This document shows, piece after piece, positions 592 through 21,366 of a stretch of DNA of 40,641 nucleotides. Every line of letters begins with the position of its first letter. The stretch's first letter is position 1. Position numbers and translations under genes: made by a program. Below the pieces are notes generated by a model. That model was not told the DNA's origin. It was given only the letters and a program-made list of their open reading frames with translations, and ran no database searches. Origin of the DNA: Bdellovibrio sp. (GTDB lineage: Bacteria; Bdellovibrionota; Bdellovibrionia; Bdellovibrionales; Bdellovibrionaceae); the NCBI GenBank assembly GCA_025359945.1, contig JANYDD010000066.1:1-40641 (forward strand), read 5' to 3'.

Positions 592-2355
592 GTGGGTATG
601 CCCGAATGGAATCCAATTTCATATTTGAGAGGGCCGGAAAATTGCTCCGGTAGGCCTACACTTCAAGTTTTAGTTTTATTTTTATTTTTGGGTGAATTTT
701 TTTCTGGATGTGTTTGGGTAAAAGGAAATATTACTACGGATTTATTTAACCAGGAAAGCCCGCGAGGTGAAAACTCAACCATCACCTACCCCGCTTTGGG
801 AATTTCAAAATCGCAAACGGCTACGGCAGATTCCTTTCAGAAACTAACCATTACAGCAAGTGGTGGCACCAGCCAGAGCTATACATACAGTATTTCTTCG
901 GGGACCGCCGCGATTGACTCTAGCAGTGGAATTTATTCTCCTTCAAGTGCTCGCGGAATTCAGCTCGTTCAAGTGACCGACAGTCAAAGAACTTCTACCG
1001 CCCAGGCCTCTATTTACCAAATCCCAGTTTGGGCAGACGGAACAGTCAACGCCGCTTTGATTGTGGGCAATGATATTTACTTAGGCGGAACCTTCACGAG
1101 CTTCGGAAGGGCTCCCACTCCGCGATTTGCGGCTCTTGATTCAAGCACGGGAAATATCACCGCCTTGGGATGCAGCCTTCAAGAAAACTTTAACGGCGCT
1201 GTCAACGTTGTTCTTAAAGCCGATACAGCTATTTTTGTAGGAGGCGCGTTTACAAAATACAAAAATTTGGATGCTTACTACTTGGCCAAATTGGATGCAA
1301 ATTGTGATTTAGATCAAACATTCACACAATCTGGAAGCAACGGCGGTTTTGATAGTTCGGTTAGTGCGCTGGCGGTTTCTGGAAATTCAATTTACGTCGG
1401 CGGAGCATTTACTCAGTACCGTTCGGGTAATTACGGCGCCAACAGCTCTAGATTTTTAGCAAAGCTTGATCAAACATCCGGAGCTTTGGATCAAACCTTT
1501 ACTCAGTCCGGAGTCAACGGTGGTTGCAGCACCTTTGTCACTGCATTGGCCGTTAGCGGGACCTCCCTGTACGTCGGTGGCGGATTTACCGCTTACAGGT
1601 CTGGAACCAACGGTGCGAATAGTGCCAACAATTTAGCAAAAATAAATTTAACGACCGGCGTTCTAGATCAGACTTTCACACAGTCCGGAGCTAACGGCGG
1701 ATTTGACTCTTCTGTTTTAGGATTAACTATTTTAGGAAATTCCATTTACGCTGGTGGCGCATTTACGCAGTATCGGTCGGGCACGTACGGAAGTTTCAGC
1801 GCAAATTACTTAGCAAAATTAAATTTAACTTCCGGGGCGTTGGACCAAACATTCACGCAAGCTGGCAGCAATGCAGGATTTAATAATTACATCGCGGCTT
1901 TGGCATCGGACAGTTCAACGATCTATGCCGGAGGTGGATTTACCCAATACCGTTCGGGCACATATGCAGTCAGCAGCGCAAATTACTTAGCAAAAGTAAA
2001 TTTAACTACCGGTGCTCTTGATCGCACGTTCACACAATCTGGTACAAATGGTGGCTTTAACGGCGCAGTTAAAGCCCTTGCTACAGATGGGACTTCGCTG
2101 TTTGTTGGCGGATCATTCACCCAATATCGATTCGCAACTTATGGCGCCACCAGCGCAAATTACTTAGCAAAGCTGGACATGACGTCGGGAAATCTTGACC
2201 AAGTTTTCACCAGTTCGGGTGCCAACGGAGGATTTAATAACAATGTGAATGGCCTTGTCGTCAGCGGGGACATCACTGTATGTCGGCGGCGACTTCACGC
2301 AATATCGAAGCGGAACCTATGGTGCCAACAGCGCCAATCGCTTAGCAAAAATTGA
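592..2355 (+). CDS. delta-60-type beta-propeller repeat lipoprotein, N-terminal part (frameshifted)
   Basis: Predicted surface or periplasmic lipoprotein. The GTG at 592 or the in-frame ATG at 598 starts it; neither has a clear ribosome binding site. A hydrophobic stretch (about residues 24-38) leads to a lipobox-like FSGC with Cys40. Residues about 60-145 look like an Ig-like domain, followed by repeats of the form TFTQSGxNGGF..VSGxSxYVGGxFTxYRSG..NSANxLAKxDLTSGxLDQ, resembling delta-60/DUF5122 beta-propeller repeats. The last about 28 residues are out of frame: one extra G in GGGG at 2266-2269 shifts the reading frame, and the repeat continues in the overlapping frame of the next entry. Restoring the frame gives one protein of 827 residues (592-3076). 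Ligand and role are unknown; a surface or adhesive role is inferred only from architecture. Confidence 0.75.
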   Translation: MGMPEWNPISYLRGPENCSGRPTLQVLVLFLFLGEFFSGCVWVKGNITTDLFNQESPRGENSTITYPALGISKSQTATADSFQKLTITASGGTSQSYTYSISSGTAAIDSSSGIYSPSSARGIQLVQVTDSQRTSTAQASIYQIPVWADGTVNAALIVGNDIYLGGTFTSFGRAPTPRFAALDSSTGNITALGCSLQENFNGAVNVVLKADTAIFVGGAFTKYKNLDAYYLAKLDANCDLDQTFTQSGSNGGFDSSVSALAVSGNSIYVGGAFTQYRSGNYGANSSRFLAKLDQTSGALDQTFTQSGVNGGCSTFVTALAVSGTSLYVGGGFTAYRSGTNGANSANNLAKINLTTGVLDQTFTQSGANGGFDSSVLGLTILGNSIYAGGAFTQYRSGTYGSFSANYLAKLNLTSGALDQTFTQAGSNAGFNNYIAALASDSSTIYAGGGFTQYRSGTYAVSSANYLAKVNLTTGALDRTFTQSGTNGGFNGAVKALATDGTSLFVGGSFTQYRFATYGATSANYLAKLDMTSGNLDQVFTSSGANGGFNNNVNGLVVSGDITVCRRRLHAISKRNLWCQQRQSLSKN

Positions 2356-3063
2356 TTTAACTTCTGGAAATCTAGACCAAGTTTTCACCAATTCGGGTGC
2401 CAACGGAGGATTTAACAATACGGTTTCTGCAGTAACCACCAGCGGAACTTCGCTTTATGCTGGAGGAGCCTTCACCCAATATCGATCAGGAACATACGGG
2501 GCCAATAGCTCGAACTATTTGGCAAAAGTCGATTTAACTTCTGGAAACTTGGACCAGGTTTTCACAAATTCTGGGGCGAACGGTGGTTTCAATTCAACCG
2601 TCAACGCGCTGGCCGTAAGCGGTACTTCGTTATATGCCGGCGGCGGATTTAACGCCTATCGATCGGGAACTTACGGGGCCAACAGCGCCAATTTTTTAGC
2701 CAAAGTCGATTTGACCAGCGGGAATTTAGACCAAGTATTTACAAATTCTGGCGCCAACGGTGGACTGAATTCAACCGTCAATGCGCTGGCGGCTTCGGGC
2801 AGCTTTCTTTTTGTGGGCGGAAACTTTACTCAGTATCGATCAGGAACTTACGGCGCTAACAGTGCTAACTATCTGGCCAAAGTTGATTTAAGTTCTGGAA
2901 ATTTAGACCAAACATTCACCCAAACAAGCGCAAGCGGCGGAATGGATTCGACCGTCAATGCTTTTGCTGTCAGTGGCACAACTGTTTATGTGGGCGGAGC
3001 TTTTGTCACTTATCGTGGCGGCTACTTCACCCCTTACCTAGGCGCCCTAGACACAACATCCGG
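1318..3063 (+). repeat. ten tandem 177-nt coding repeats
   Basis: Units start at the (T/V)FT codons at 1318, 1495, 1672, 1849, 2026, 2203, 2381, 2558, 2735 and 2912. The spacing is exactly 177 nt throughout, except for the unit holding the extra G at 2266-2269 (178 nt). Each unit encodes 59 residues. Amino-acid identity between units is high, especially units 6-9 (FTNSGANGGFN, YRSGTYGANSAN), which indicates recent duplication or gene conversion. The first half-unit before 1318 and the last unit are divergent. Confidence 0.85.
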
Positions 3064-3076
3064 ATCGCCAAAGTAA
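2249..3076 (+). CDS. delta-60-type repeat lipoprotein, C-terminal part (frameshifted)
   Basis: This is the continuation of the repeat protein that starts at 592. The ATG at 2249 is probably only an internal codon in the shifted frame: it has no ribosome binding site, and the first few residues (MALSSAG) are the out-of-frame version of the repeat segment VNGLVVSG. From about 2270 the frame carries four more copies of the 59-residue repeat (YVGGDFTQYRSGTYGANSANRLAK and variants) and ends in a divergent final unit. It has no signal peptide of its own, so it would not be exported if translated alone. It is either the 3' half of a recently frameshifted gene or an artefact of a one-base sequencing error. 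Confidence 0.65.
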   Translation: MALSSAGTSLYVGGDFTQYRSGTYGANSANRLAKIDLTSGNLDQVFTNSGANGGFNNTVSAVTTSGTSLYAGGAFTQYRSGTYGANSSNYLAKVDLTSGNLDQVFTNSGANGGFNSTVNALAVSGTSLYAGGGFNAYRSGTYGANSANFLAKVDLTSGNLDQVFTNSGANGGLNSTVNALAASGSFLFVGGNFTQYRSGTYGANSANYLAKVDLSSGNLDQTFTQTSASGGMDSTVNAFAVSGTTVYVGGAFVTYRGGYFTPYLGALDTTSGSPK

Positions 3077-16079: not shown

Positions 16080-16826
16080 ATGAAAGCATTTAAAAGATCG
16101 CAAGTACAACCCAGTGTATTGGCCTTCATTGTGCTGGCAAGCTCGCTGATTTTTATCGGCTGCGGACCTCAGACCATTGGGCCGACGGAAGATTCACTAT
16201 CTTCAACTTCAACTTCGCCTTCGGATTCAAACGTGCTTCTTTGCAGTCAGGGCTCGGGAAATTCTGCAGTGATGAATCTTAAGTTGGTGACACAAGCTTC
16301 TGGTTTGCGTAACGACCTGGTCGGGGTCAGAATGCTGAATGTCCCTGAAACTTTCACAGCAACAGCAACGAACGAATTGCAATTTTTTGCCGAGAAATTT
16401 AGTTCGTCAAACGTTTCAATAGCAAACACACGGACGACATTTTATTTGATGGACTCAAGCACTGGAAAGTATCTTAATTCCAACGGATACCAGGGCCTAA
16501 AATGGTCCGACATGAAAAGTATTTACAACGCCACTTTCGGCGGAGCCGTCATCACCACTGTGGCGCAGTTCTTTGCAAAATTTAATCTGATCGTGGATAT
16601 CGCCGACACCTCTTCAAGCACAAAACTTTTACGGGCTTTTATTTTCGAAAATTTAAACGCAGCCCCTACACGAGAGATCAAAGCATTGATCCCAAGATTT
16701 TTAGCCAATCCAGAGGAATACAAGAAAGTGAGTTCAAATACTTTGTATAGTCTGCACCCGCTGAAAGGCCAAAGCTTCGGCACTACGGCCGAATATGTTC
16801 AGAAGGCTAACGAGTTTTGTTTCTAG
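16080..16826 (+). CDS. lipoprotein of unknown function
   Basis: The signal peptide has Lys/Arg in its first residues, a hydrophobic core (about 12-26) and a lipobox FIGC with Cys28, followed by a Ser/Thr-rich linker (about 35-50). The remaining about 190 residues form a mixed alpha/beta domain with no family that I recognise; two Cys (about residue 54 and near the C-terminus, NEFCF) could form a disulfide. Start ATG is supported by GGGGGG about 5 nt upstream. It converges with and overlaps by 4 nt the next gene on the minus strand. Confidence 0.75.
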   Translation: MKAFKRSQVQPSVLAFIVLASSLIFIGCGPQTIGPTEDSLSSTSTSPSDSNVLLCSQGSGNSAVMNLKLVTQASGLRNDLVGVRMLNVPETFTATATNELQFFAEKFSSSNVSIANTRTTFYLMDSSTGKYLNSNGYQGLKWSDMKSIYNATFGGAVITTVAQFFAKFNLIVDIADTSSSTKLLRAFIFENLNAAPTREIKALIPRFLANPEEYKKVSSNTLYSLHPLKGQSFGTTAEYVQKANEFCF

Positions 16827-17740
16827 TGAGAAGATTCTTGAATCACTTCGTCGGCTTGCAAATTTTCACCATGCCGATAGCGATCCACTAAAGTGTCATC
16901 ATCCGTAGGAAAGGAAAACAGCAAAGTGTGAACCTTGGTTGCCGCATCTTCTTGTGTGACCGCCAAATAATATAAATCTTTAAATTTTTCATGGTCTGAA
17001 AATTCTTTAATAAAAGTCACGATCCGGTTTCCACTAGAATCGACAGATCGCCAAATTTCATCTGCGGTTTCGATGGTGCTTTCGCGAAGCTCTTCCCCTA
17101 AGTTTTGAAAATCCGAATAAGGAATATCCTTTTCTCCGCGAATTTTTAACATCGCAATAAATAAACCCATTCCCAACGGGTCACCCTCGCTCAGCGCATC
17201 GCCTTCAAGCATGGCAAAACCTACCTCTTCAAAATTATGATCGTAAACTAAATCTCCCCGACGATAGTTTTCCACCATTTCAACCCGGCCAGTTATGAAA
17301 TGCAGGAATACGAAAGTGGGTTCGTCCTCGTGCGAGACATAAGCTACGGCCACGTGAAAAAGATCGACCTCGTCCAAGCCACGAATGAAGTGAAATATTG
17401 AAAACTTGGGGAATGTTTTTGAGTCGTGCCAAATTTCTGTAGGTAAATCTAACGTGAAATCCAATTGATCTTCAATATCGATCTTGGCTTCGCGTTCAGC
17501 TTCGGCCTGATTTATTTTTGGATCCGTGGACAAATATTTTTTGGCTAGCGCATCGTGTTCGGCCTCTAAAAAATCAATTTGTATTTGGAAGTGCTCAAAT
17601 AGTTCTTTTTCAGAAGAAAAAACTAGACCTTCTTTTTGGTCGATCATGATCGTTTCTGAATGGTGTTTTTTAGCGCGAAGTCGAAGATTTTTTTTCTTCA
17701 GGGCTTTCGGTTTTCGAGACGGAACTTTGCTGGGCGCGAT
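16823..17740 (-). CDS. conserved-looking acidic cytoplasmic protein, unknown function, probable ATC start
   Basis: No family recognised. The N-terminus is basic (about 30 residues rich in Lys/Arg), and the rest is acidic, mixed alpha/beta, with no signal peptide or membrane helix. Start: the open frame begins at TTG 17752, but that codon is part of the ribosome binding site TTTGGAGG (GGAGG at 17750-17746). No ATG, GTG or TTG lies at a proper distance after it; the codon 5 nt downstream is ATC (17740-17738), giving about 305 residues. The next in-frame ATG is about 30 codons later without a ribosome binding site. The 3' end overlaps the convergent lipoprotein gene by 4 nt. Confidence 0.65.
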   Translation of the reverse strand: MAPSKVPSRKPKALKKKNLRLRAKKHHSETIMIDQKEGLVFSSEKELFEHFQIQIDFLEAEHDALAKKYLSTDPKINQAEAEREAKIDIEDQLDFTLDLPTEIWHDSKTFPKFSIFHFIRGLDEVDLFHVAVAYVSHEDEPTFVFLHFITGRVEMVENYRRGDLVYDHNFEEVGFAMLEGDALSEGDPLGMGLFIAMLKIRGEKDIPYSDFQNLGEELRESTIETADEIWRSVDSSGNRIVTFIKEFSDHEKFKDLYYLAVTQEDAATKVHTLLFSFPTDDDTLVDRYRHGENLQADEVIQESSH

Positions 17741-17935
17741 AGAAACCTCCAAATTTTATTTTCCAATGTTTCGAAAAACTTCAATAGGAAATAAACGGAA
17801 TTGATGAGCCTAGTCATGAATGTTTTTAAAAGGTGACAAATTTTCCGTTTTTTCTAATCCTAAATGCAGGGCATTTGTCTGTTCATGGACGAATAGTAAA
17901 GACAAACCCAAAATTGAATATACGCGCAAAGTATA

Positions 17936-17960
17936 CGCTCAAGAAATGCGCTCAAGAAAT
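17936..17960 (+). repeat. tandem 13-nt repeat before a ribosome binding site
   Basis: CGCTCAAGAAAT occurs at 17936-17947 and 17949-17960, a 13-nt period, directly upstream of AAGGAGG. It lies in the leader of the next gene; a third, degraded copy may start at 17961. Confidence 0.4.
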
Positions 17961-17976
17961 ACGCAAGGAGGCGTTG

Positions 17977-18327
17977 ATGTCAGAATCCCCCTTTCAAGAC
18001 TCTGGTGATGAACCCTCGCTGCAAGAAAAAAGTTTACAGCGAATGGAAGCCCTTCTTCAGCAATCGGCTCAGGGGATTCATATTCTTTTCAAAAATTCCG
18101 AAATTGCCGGCGCTTTAGCAGAAGTCAAAGACAACAAAGACTTCTTTGATTTTGCGAAAATGAAGGTCGTGCAGGATTTAATGACCCACCTGATAGCTAA
18201 AAAAACTTATCTAGAAAAAGTCGCATTTCTTAATGATCTAGAAATCGAAAAATTCAATATGCTGGTCAGGACTTATTTTCATATCGTAGAAAACACCATT
18301 CGTTCAAAACCTGATCACCGCCACTAA
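17977..18327 (+). CDS. small hydrophilic helical protein, unknown function
   Basis: 116 residues. The ATG at 17977 is chosen because AAGGAGG stands 5 nt upstream; the frame is open further upstream to 17833, but those codons lack a ribosome binding site and read as leader. The protein is predicted mostly helical (KSLQRMEALLQQSAQGIHILF, KMKVVQDLMTHLIAKKTYLEK) and has no signal peptide, Cys or known motif. Function cannot be inferred from sequence. Confidence 0.7.
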   Translation: MSESPFQDSGDEPSLQEKSLQRMEALLQQSAQGIHILFKNSEIAGALAEVKDNKDFFDFAKMKVVQDLMTHLIAKKTYLEKVAFLNDLEIEKFNMLVRTYFHIVENTIRSKPDHRH

Positions 18328-18413: not shown

Positions 18414-18737
18414 ATGATGTTGTGGATGCTCTTATTCATCAGACCCAGTTTTTCGGAATACCGAGTGTTTCGATTGGAAATCGTCAACACCGAAACTCTA
18501 GTCGCACGAAGCTTGGTTTACAATTTAGATCCCCATCAATACCCTGGATATTTTCCCCTTCGTGCCTCTGAGAAAATCAGTTACACCGAAACCTGGATGT
18601 GCCGAGGTAACACTTCTGATTTTACAAGCTTTTGCCCGTCCCCTTCTGAACAGCAACCGCCGCCAGATTTACAACCAAAAGAAGCGCCAGCAACAGGCGC
18701 GCAACCCCCTTTACCTTTACCCCCCTCGAAGGGCTAG
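18414..18737 (+). CDS. small exported protein with proline-rich tail
   Basis: 107 residues at most. A short hydrophobic N-terminus (MMLWMLLFIRPSFS) looks like a signal peptide with cleavage near FSEY; then a compact segment starting YRVFRLEIVN with two Cys (about 63 and 74), and a Pro/Gln-rich tail. ATG 18414, 18417 or 18426 could start it; no strong ribosome binding site. Followed by a terminator candidate. Function unknown. Confidence 0.6.
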   Translation: MMLWMLLFIRPSFSEYRVFRLEIVNTETLVARSLVYNLDPHQYPGYFPLRASEKISYTETWMCRGNTSDFTSFCPSPSEQQPPPDLQPKEAPATGAQPPLPLPPSKG

Positions 18738-18753: not shown

Positions 18754-18775
18754 GGCCTTTCTCAGGCTTTTTTTT
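18754..18775 (+). terminator. intrinsic terminator candidate
   Basis: A short stem GCCT / AGGC (18755-18758 and 18764-18767) with a 5-nt loop is followed by eight T residues. It lies 17 nt after the small exported protein and before the coiled-coil gene. Confidence 0.45.
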
Positions 18776-18816: not shown

Positions 18817-20373
18817 GTGGCCACGGAAGTGACGGCGAAACAACGAAACTACAATCAAGAGCTCAGCGAGCTTACGAACTCTTATCAGCAAAAACGTAAA
18901 GAAATCGTCGACAGCAAAGAAAAAGAAATCACCGACATGAAAGACAAGTACTCCCAGCGGGCTTCACAAACTAGGGTCGAAGGCGAAGCCGCGATCAATC
19001 ACATTCGCAAAGATCAAACCAATCAGATGGAAAGTTTGAAAACAGGATTCGAAGAACGTCGTGAAAATTTTCAAACCCAGAAGCAGCGCGAGACTGAAAA
19101 TCTAAAGAAAGATCTCAAGAAGACTCAAGAGCAATGGGACGACCGACTCAAAAGCGAAAGCGACCAGGCCGAAACCAGGGTCAAAGAAATCCAACGTAAA
19201 GAAGAAGACCAGCGCCGCGCCATTTTGGAAACGTCTAAAAAATTTCAAAATAATCAGACTGAAACGATCAAAGAGACCGATAAAAAATTTCAAACCAAAA
19301 TCCAAGAGGTGGTTAAAAAGGGTGATCAAAAGCAGACCCAAATAGTTCAAAAAGAAAAACAAGAGATCTCTAAAATCCGCGACCAGTATCAAGAGCTCGA
19401 GGCCAAGGAAAAGATAAAAGCTCAAAGCGCTTTAGAAAATCAAAAAAGCCAGGCTCAGCAAAACCAGAAAGAAGTCCAAAGACATTTCGAAAAAAATCTG
19501 GGGATGCAAAAAAAACAAGGTGAAAAAAACATTCAATTCGTCCAGCAGAAGTTCAAAGATGACGTCGAAAAAACAAAAGGTAAAAATCAGTATCAATTGG
19601 ATCAACTGAAAAACAATCAAGAAGCCAAAATCGCTATCGAAAAAGAAAAAGGCGAAAAAACTTTTAAGTCCACCCAAAAGGGATATCAAGAGGCCATCGA
19701 CAACACCGAAAAATTAGGTGACCACCGACTTAAAGAGCTAACGACCAAAGGGGAACGCGAAGTTAAGAGGACCGAGGCTGAGCTTGCCCAAGAGAATCTA
19801 AAAACTAAAAAACAATATGAATCTCAGAAAATAGGCATGCAAGAAAACTATCAAAAGATGTTCGAAAAAAATTCTGAAATTTACAAAAAAAATCTGGATC
19901 GTCAGGGAGAAATTTTTGAGAAGAGAAAATCTCACTTAGATCAGGATCACGAACGCTCGGTGAATATTCAAAAGAACCTTTATACCCGCGACTTGGCCGA
20001 GAAAAAAATGGAGCACCTGCAAAAAATCGCAGGGTATGATGAAAAAGCGGATGACCCTTTTTACTCTATCGTCGACCGACAAAGCCGAATGTTAGAAAAT
20101 TCATCTCACTATATTCTTCGCGCCTTTATCCCCTCGCACGAGAAAAAAAGCATCAGGCTTCAGATCCACGATGACAAGTTAGTTTTATCAGGGACTCGTC
20201 TTCACAAGGACCAAGTCGAAGGCGAAGAAAAAAAACTAGCGTCGCAAACATTTCAAACTTTTAAAGAAGAATTTAAAATCACCGACCCAGTCGCCAAGAA
20301 AGGCGTGTTGGAAGAGCGAAGTGGGAACTATGTTTATTTTAAAGTCCCCAAGATGGCTTTCATTAAAAGCTAA
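18817..20373 (+). CDS. long coiled coil fused to an Hsp20/alpha-crystallin-like domain
   Basis: Residues 1 to about 405 contain no proline and no cysteine and are dominated by Lys, Glu, Gln, Asp and Asn: a continuous charged helix or coiled coil. The first proline is Pro414. Residues about 428-512 then resemble a small heat-shock protein core: YILRAFIPSHEKKSIRLQI, DKLVLSGTR, FKEEFKITDPV and GNYVYFKVPK match the strands, the LxxSG turn and the final LPK-like motif of Hsp20. No signal peptide or membrane segment. GTG start with AGGGAG about 10 nt upstream. It converges with the next small gene, only 5 nt apart. Function unknown; a structural or chaperone scaffold is inferred. Confidence 0.8.
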   Translation: MATEVTAKQRNYNQELSELTNSYQQKRKEIVDSKEKEITDMKDKYSQRASQTRVEGEAAINHIRKDQTNQMESLKTGFEERRENFQTQKQRETENLKKDLKKTQEQWDDRLKSESDQAETRVKEIQRKEEDQRRAILETSKKFQNNQTETIKETDKKFQTKIQEVVKKGDQKQTQIVQKEKQEISKIRDQYQELEAKEKIKAQSALENQKSQAQQNQKEVQRHFEKNLGMQKKQGEKNIQFVQQKFKDDVEKTKGKNQYQLDQLKNNQEAKIAIEKEKGEKTFKSTQKGYQEAIDNTEKLGDHRLKELTTKGEREVKRTEAELAQENLKTKKQYESQKIGMQENYQKMFEKNSEIYKKNLDRQGEIFEKRKSHLDQDHERSVNIQKNLYTRDLAEKKMEHLQKIAGYDEKADDPFYSIVDRQSRMLENSSHYILRAFIPSHEKKSIRLQIHDDKLVLSGTRLHKDQVEGEEKKLASQTFQTFKEEFKITDPVAKKGVLEERSGNYVYFKVPKMAFIKS

Positions 20374-20745: not shown

Positions 20746-21366
20746 TTACTTGTATTCACATTTGATGGACTCTAAATCCGCAGGCCTGGGGGCATCGCGA
20801 ACCGTGTTCGACGCCAGTTCCGTGGACATCAGGCTAGGGGCATCATCTCGGTGCTTAAGGCCAATCACGTGCCCCAATTCATGGCCTGCGACACTTGGAA
20901 AATGCACGTCCCGGACGCCAGTTGGCTTATCGATATAGAATTTAAAGTCCCGCGCGTTGAATTTAATATCGGCCTCAACAATTTGGCTGCTGCTTTGATC
21001 CCAGACGATCACGGTTCGGGCCTGCTCGTCAGTCCGAGAACTATCCCATTTTGTCATCCAGTAAACGACACTGACTCCGTCTTGCTTGGGTTCCCCTGCA
21101 TCATGGTAATTGGTATCGACGACGCTAAAGAACGCTCGTCCGGTTTCGTTTTTCCACTCTTCAACTTCTTTTTGAATGGCAGGAACAAATTCTCGGGGAA
21201 CGGTATCCGATATCCGCAACGGAAAACCGGTCCTACCTTTCAGCGAAACCCTTTGCTGGGACGCCGACATCACAAAGCCGCAATCCTTTTGGGGCTTGGG
21301 GGCGCACGCCTGCAACATAAACAACACGATTAGAATGGATAACGAACCAACAACCGAAACCCGCAT
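20746..21366 (-). CDS. matrixin-like zinc metalloprotease lipoprotein
   Basis: Exported metzincin-type protease. Signal peptide with lipobox LQAC (Cys21). The zinc site HELGHVIGLKH is at 162-172 (His162, Glu163, His166, His172), and SLMS with Met180 supplies the Met-turn expected of metzincins (M10/M57-like). Length 206 indicates a bare catalytic domain without a recognisable pro-domain or hemopexin repeats; Cys29 and Cys203 could form a disulfide. ATG preceded by GAGGAACAGGTG. Likely role: cleavage of envelope or external proteins (inference). Its upstream region is long and structured (see 21367-21844). Confidence 0.88.
   Translation of the reverse strand: MRVSVVGSLSILIVLFMLQACAPKPQKDCGFVMSASQQRVSLKGRTGFPLRISDTVPREFVPAIQKEVEEWKNETGRAFFSVVDTNYHDAGEPKQDGVSVVYWMTKWDSSRTDEQARTVIVWDQSSSQIVEADIKFNARDFKFYIDKPTGVRDVHFPSVAGHELGHVIGLKHRDDAPSLMSTELASNTVRDAPRPADLESIKCEYK

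Follow-up and report, generated by a model that had tools for sequence, protein, structure and literature searches.

A long hendecad coiled coil of conserved length joined to an alpha-crystallin domain across much of Bdellovibrionota

Whether Bdellovibrio possesses its own cytoskeleton, and what determines the distances inside its cells, is a vague question that becomes directly testable with a widespread, uncharacterised gene of these predatory bacteria, in which the length of a predicted rod is exact over deep divergence. The gene lies in a 40,641-nucleotide stretch of Bdellovibrio sp. DNA (hereafter referred to as the window). An earlier note, made from the letters of the window, had described its product as a long proline-free coiled coil with an Hsp20-like domain at the end, had thought of a cytoskeletal filament, a spacer or a scaffold that places a chaperone, and had known of no described system of this architecture. 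Here we describe a computational analysis of this gene (hereafter the rod gene), its protein and its neighbours (Table 1). Both halves of the protein are of known kinds, and it is their combination, conservation and fixed length that appear to be new. The open-access literature yielded no account of a Bdellovibrio coiled coil joined to an Hsp20 domain, a broader search of titles and abstracts likewise returned nothing relevant, and the NCBIfam models gave neither a match nor a helpful name for this protein or its neighbours F0, F5 and F6; to that extent, the impression of an undescribed system stands. We propose, with about even confidence, that the protein is a cytoplasmic structural rod, that is, a spacer or scaffold that possibly forms filaments, in which the crystallin domain acts as a dimerising or binding head.

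Table 1 Features of the rod gene locus, in window coordinates
Feature	Coordinates	Strand	Description and evidence
F0	16823..17752	-	Divergent gene; ~290 aa; PBECR2 nuclease-like domain (PF18810, 1e-8)
F5	17833..18327	+	Small protein ending ...RTYFHIVENT...H; conserved as a neighbour of F6 and the rod gene
F6	18414..18737	+	Small protein; signal-peptide-like start; EYRVF...STLDP.QY...W.C.G.T...C; adjoins the rod gene here and is upstream of it in most loci, f12 among them
Terminator-like hairpin and T run	18754..18768	+	Between F6 and the rod gene; weak evidence, since 5 such sites were found against 5.3 expected by chance
Rod gene	18817..20373	+	CDS, 518 aa; GTG start; hendecad coiled-coil rod and alpha-crystallin domain
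Rod	18820..20046	+	Residues 2-410; ~60 nm; hydrophobic period 3.66 (11/3); AlphaFold helices, periodicity, conserved end-motif spacing
N-terminal rod motif GEAAINHIRK	18982..19011	+	Residues 56-65; most conserved part of the rod N-terminus
Hinge motif DPFY	20053..20064	+	Residues 413-416; joins rod to domain; orthologue alignment; pLDDT low at 410-418
Alpha-crystallin (Hsp20) domain	20083..20352	+	Residues 423-512; PF00011, structure-profile search, Foldseek

The start of the reading frame is supported by AGGGAG, a ribosome-binding-like sequence about 10 nt upstream of the GTG, and by the starts of the orthologues. Promoter and terminator scans around the gene remained at chance level. The protein contains no signal-peptide-like or membrane segment, its most hydrophobic 19-residue window averaging -0.07, and, judged from the absence of such segments, it is probably cytoplasmic.

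The rod is a hendecad (11/3) coiled coil, not a heptad one. Residues 1-413 of the window protein are free of proline, which first appears as P414 within the hinge motif. At a proline frequency of 4.2%, taken from eight long window genes, the chance of 412 proline-free residues is ~2e-8; one of those eight genes, which encodes a beta-repeat protein, has a comparable 410-residue proline-free run, so that the absence of proline is by itself weak evidence for a rod. Periodicity and predicted helices provide stronger evidence. Hydrophobic residues recur with a period of 3.66 residues, a value reached in none of 200 shuffles, and acidic residues follow the same period. The hydrophobic period also holds when averaged over 54 members; it is far less marked in two f12 members taken singly, where 4 and 12 of 200 shuffles attain the value. 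The autocorrelation of the rod is greater at 22 residues (0.32) than at 11 (0.28). AlphaFold, supplied with 38 orthologues and modelling a single chain, predicted helices at residues 2-168 and 171-410 followed by a beta-sandwich, with a mean pLDDT of 78. The coiled coil proposed in the earlier note is borne out by these results, and its length estimate of about 60 nm holds. Some Pfam models, SARAH and DraK among them, matched the rod; we rejected these matches as coiled-coil noise.

Conserved motifs mark both ends of the rod. Near the N-terminus, A58 and H62 are nearly invariant among the 38 orthologues, and in the class of longer rods defined below the A, H and I of this motif are conserved at 0.95, 0.93 and 0.88, respectively. 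At the other end, the D, F and Y of the hinge are invariant in f1, the family of the window's genome.

An 11/3 periodicity is common to coiled coils and to lipid-binding 11-residue helices, and the rod, with about 20% hydrophobic residues, could accordingly be read as an amphipathic helix on a membrane or lipid surface, of the type found in alpha-synuclein and perilipins, instead of a coiled coil. We consider this very improbable: the hydrophobic stripe is narrow, with one strong position of the 11 and two weaker ones (71, 40 and 38% hydrophobic, respectively), all other positions carry charged residues over about 400 residues, and exact conservation of length would be unexpected for a helix that binds lipid. 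The coiled coil instead resembles those of FilP and Scy of actinobacteria, which are long, extended hendecad coiled coils in bacterial cytoplasmic proteins (PMC9858780). Hendecad coiled coils are almost straight, and the cores of FilP and Scy are alanine-rich (PMC9858780), whereas the rod protein has an alanine-poor core (alanine makes up 5-10% of the rod), carries an alpha-crystallin domain and comes from an unrelated phylum.

The C-terminal part of the protein is an Hsp20 fold, as the earlier note had supposed. The window domain alone matched PF00011 (HSP20) with E = 0.0018 and 18.8 bits, just below the cut-off of 20.8, and the family was recognised in 37 of the 38 orthologues, at best with 3.8e-7. 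A profile of the alignment, run with hmmsearch against solved structures, matched small heat-shock proteins (5ds2 at 2.5e-6, 6ewn, 3gla and 1gme). The top 50 Foldseek matches were all small heat-shock proteins with a probability of 1.00, for both the full model and a separate domain model; the two models share their orthologues and so are not independent. The TM-scores of the domain model were ~0.5 by query and mostly 0.6-0.7 by target; the alpha-crystallin fold is therefore well supported, and its details are not.

A comparison with small heat-shock proteins (Hsp20, PF00011), such as Xanthomonas HspA (3gla), pea Hsp18.1 (5ds2) and Entamoeba Hsp18.5 (6l6m), revealed a shared C-terminal fold with a recognisable sequence relationship, and, by eye, a beta5-beta7 stretch similar in length to that of the bacterial HspA. 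By contrast, small heat-shock proteins have a short, variable N-terminus where the rod protein has a coiled coil of about 400 residues and fixed length, and their small subunits (about 12-43 kDa) differ from its 518 residues. The rod protein is further distinguished by its conserved hinge. The window protein stops 6 residues beyond the last strand of the domain (the last PK) and has no IXI motif; in a crude scan for I/V-X-I/V in the last 18 residues, a stretch that includes the last strand in many members, 50 of 114 members matched. Some members outside f1 show the A-x-x-x-n-G-v-L motif of strands 8-9 in the form NGVL, DGVL or similar, and in Bdellovibrionaceae the loop between the last two strands is instead DGDW- or DGDF-like.

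These features bear on whether the domain might be a working holdase, with the rod serving only to oligomerise or position it. A true alpha-crystallin fold, the canonical loop in some members outside f1 and an Hsp33 chaperone gene 2.4 kb downstream of the rod gene, also nearby in many relatives, are what such a stalked chaperone would lead one to expect, but the missing IXI tail of the window protein and the altered loop in Bdellovibrionaceae are not. Moreover, ordinary Hsp20 genes are present in many of the genomes that carry the rod gene, one genome described below has lost the domain and kept the N-terminal rod motif, and the conservation of rod length far exceeds what a tether needs and would go unexplained. 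On balance, we judge a stalked chaperone unlikely.

Rod length was measured as the spacing between two anchors, a profile of residues 11-66 (the N-terminal AAINHI region) and the DPFY motif, wherever the N-terminal profile matched clearly. It is exactly 346 aa for 42 proteins from eight families (f1, f3, f4, f5, f6, f7, f9 and f11; these labels denote numbered groups, not named taxa) and exactly 251 aa in 26 members, all from f1, counts that are not independent because the sequences share ancestry. The two classes correspond to two main rod lengths, ~60 nm for the window protein and ~47 nm for Bdellovibrio proper. Within the 346 class, ungapped identity over 390 rod residues averages 19.5%, with a minimum of 12.3%, and a shift by one residue lowers the mean to 7.5%; each 50-residue window drops alike on the shift, so no compensating insertions and deletions are hidden in this class. 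Among the few members with other spacings, those of 335 (two members), 313 and 302 equal 346 minus 11, 33 and 44, and that of 240 (two members) equals 251 minus 11; further spacings of 268, 248, 244, 232, 119, 97, 66 and 37 are not all multiples of 11 away. The 95-residue step between the two classes equals eight hendecads and one heptad, or 26 turns, to which we attach no weight, because many numbers of that size decompose likewise. The fixed length is not universal, since families f22-f27, like a few members of f5 and f9, have shorter or variable rods.

As a control, we used another long coiled-coil protein of the genus Bdellovibrio, in which 14 of 22 orthologues contained internal gaps of 1 to 15 residues; the comparison covers one protein, orthologues at 50-95% identity to the HD100 copy and gaps from automatic alignment. 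Coiled coils in these genomes can thus change length, whereas this rod mostly does not. To our knowledge, few proteins other than intermediate filaments, tropomyosin-like proteins and rulers keep a rod length exact across deep divergence.

The control protein is also our best candidate for Ccrp, a long coiled-coil protein of Bdellovibrio according to the citation of Fenton et al. (2010) in PMC8938487. The candidate gene (L106:18741-19898, minus strand) encodes a coiled coil that begins with a signal-like segment and varies in length across the genus. In what we take to be the HD100 genome, it lies at 2.619 Mb, which is presumably the place of Bd2697, the locus tag of Ccrp; the open-access literature yielded nothing on Bd2697. 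The rod orthologue lies at 1.2015-1.2028 Mb of that genome and the Ccrp candidate has no Hsp20 domain, and on these two grounds we rejected the identification of the rod protein with Ccrp.

The architecture occurs across much of Bdellovibrionota, where the earlier note had proposed to look for it. Orthologues (E<1e-20) were found in 60 of the 66 f1 genomes, four of the six others being less than 90% complete; at E<=1e-3 the count rises to 64 of 66 and takes in ordinary Hsp20 genes. About 18 further families of the phylum also have orthologues. Long-frame orthologues that include the hinge and the domain are present in other families of the order and, elsewhere in the phylum, in f11, f12 (which we take, by inference only, to be Bacteriovoracaceae), f20 and f22-f27, and the gene is often absent from groups with genomes of ~1.2-2.4 Mb. 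We also looked for homologues in which the C-terminal part is unrelated: nearly all members keep both rod and domain. A scan of genome contigs with the single protein as query gave no match, and an alignment-based scan gave 33 loci, all in records titled as Bdellovibrionota-type organisms or generic bacteria; the latter scan used one 10-residue pattern, so the rod gene may also exist beyond the phylum. The plasmids scanned contained no match to the rod protein.

The exact rod length, together with the conserved motifs at both ends, makes a spacer or scaffold the best explanation, and its constancy favours a spacer, scaffold or filament over a free chaperone. In our proposal, chains would pair in register through the nearly straight coiled coil, over the length characteristic of each class. 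The N-terminal end with the AAINHI motif may bind or anchor one partner, and the alpha-crystallin domain, the relatives of which generally form dimers, would sit on its short DPFY hinge as a head that dimerises or binds protein, free-standing chaperone work not being its main role. Each rod could then keep two things a set distance apart, or align with other rods in register in a larger assembly. The alpha-crystallin domain would thereby serve as a structural end-piece. In animals, free alphaB-crystallin is an assembly chaperone that binds desmin intermediate filaments (PMC5465037).

Intermediate filaments are also the model for a different reading, in which the rods polymerise laterally and end to end into a cytoskeletal filament. 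The AlphaFold model, a rod followed by a beta-sandwich, recalls the lamins, and, as in intermediate filaments, the rod lengths are fixed and fall into a few discrete classes. The lamin beta-sandwich is an Ig fold, which the alpha-crystallin domain would replace. In intermediate filaments, 42 residues of coil 1B separate the lamins and protostome cytoplasmic types from the chordate cytoplasmic types (PMC4829535), and extended hendecads are also found in the bacterial cytoskeletal proteins FilP and Scy (PMC9858780). However, no sequence relationship with intermediate filaments is apparent, the repeat is hendecad and not heptad, and the beta-sandwich belongs to another family. The intermediate-filament family PF00038 gave no match to the window protein, and the match of one of 38 C-terminal pieces, at E=0.09, is noise; no Pfam filament model rose above it, and the consensus motifs that intermediate filaments have at the two rod ends were not seen. 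A DivIVA-like N-terminal motif, as in FilP and Scy, was likewise not found, with no Pfam match and, by eye, no RGYD-like motif in the first 70 residues. A search of the rod for a long-range axial charge period of the intermediate-filament kind detected none that was significant, leaving a regular staggered packing of rods unsupported. We therefore regard an intermediate-filament-like protein as a possible but rather doubtful alternative to the spacer or scaffold.

Short rods occur in the clade of the two known epibiotic predators, in which the rod is reduced to ~100-145 aa. The rods of Candidatus Bdellovibrio qaytius (CP025734) and a relative measure 145 and 102 residues, and both proteins have the domain. 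Another genome, presumably that of Pseudobdellovibrio exovorus JSS, lacks the rod-plus-domain protein and has, behind F0, F5 and F6, a 134-aa open reading frame (L176:11741-12145) that encodes an N-terminal coil with AAVNHI; no alpha-crystallin domain was found in this frame or in the sequence downstream. This gene retains the N-terminal motif in the absence of the domain, indicating that the rod N-terminus can matter without it. The apparent link of rod length to feeding mode comes from one clade only and counts as a lead, not as a test. At its most speculative, the pattern could reflect a structural protein that is ancient in Bdellovibrionota and differs from the bacterial cytoskeletal proteins described so far, either a molecular ruler or a lamin-like filament with a crystallin tail, needed for long dividing growth inside prey and shortened or reduced in outside feeders; we think it improbable that this whole scenario is correct.

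The genes beside the rod gene name no partner for its protein. The order F0, F5, F6 and rod gene recurs in most loci inspected, f12 included, with members missing or undetected in some; that the order is kept so widely suggests vertical descent and perhaps a common role, and is no proof of an operon. The domain of F0 is recognised more clearly in its HD100 orthologue (PF18810, 7.5e-21), and F0 stays next to the rod gene in much of the phylum. Such conservation would be surprising for a toxin-type nuclease fold, so that F0 may have a housekeeping role or its domain may be misnamed. F5 and F6 are uncharacterised proteins retained with the rod gene; the true start of F5 is probably the ATG at about 17977, and F6 has two conserved cysteines. 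A Matrixin-type (PF00413) metalloprotease gene with a lipoprotein-like start lies at 20746-21366 of the window on the minus strand, and most of f1 conserves it downstream of the rod gene, at a distance of one or two genes. Elsewhere in the window, two overlapping plus-strand frames (592-2355 and 2249-3076), read in different frames, encode the same DUF5122-like repeats and look like one repeat protein broken by an apparent frameshift, either natural or an assembly error.
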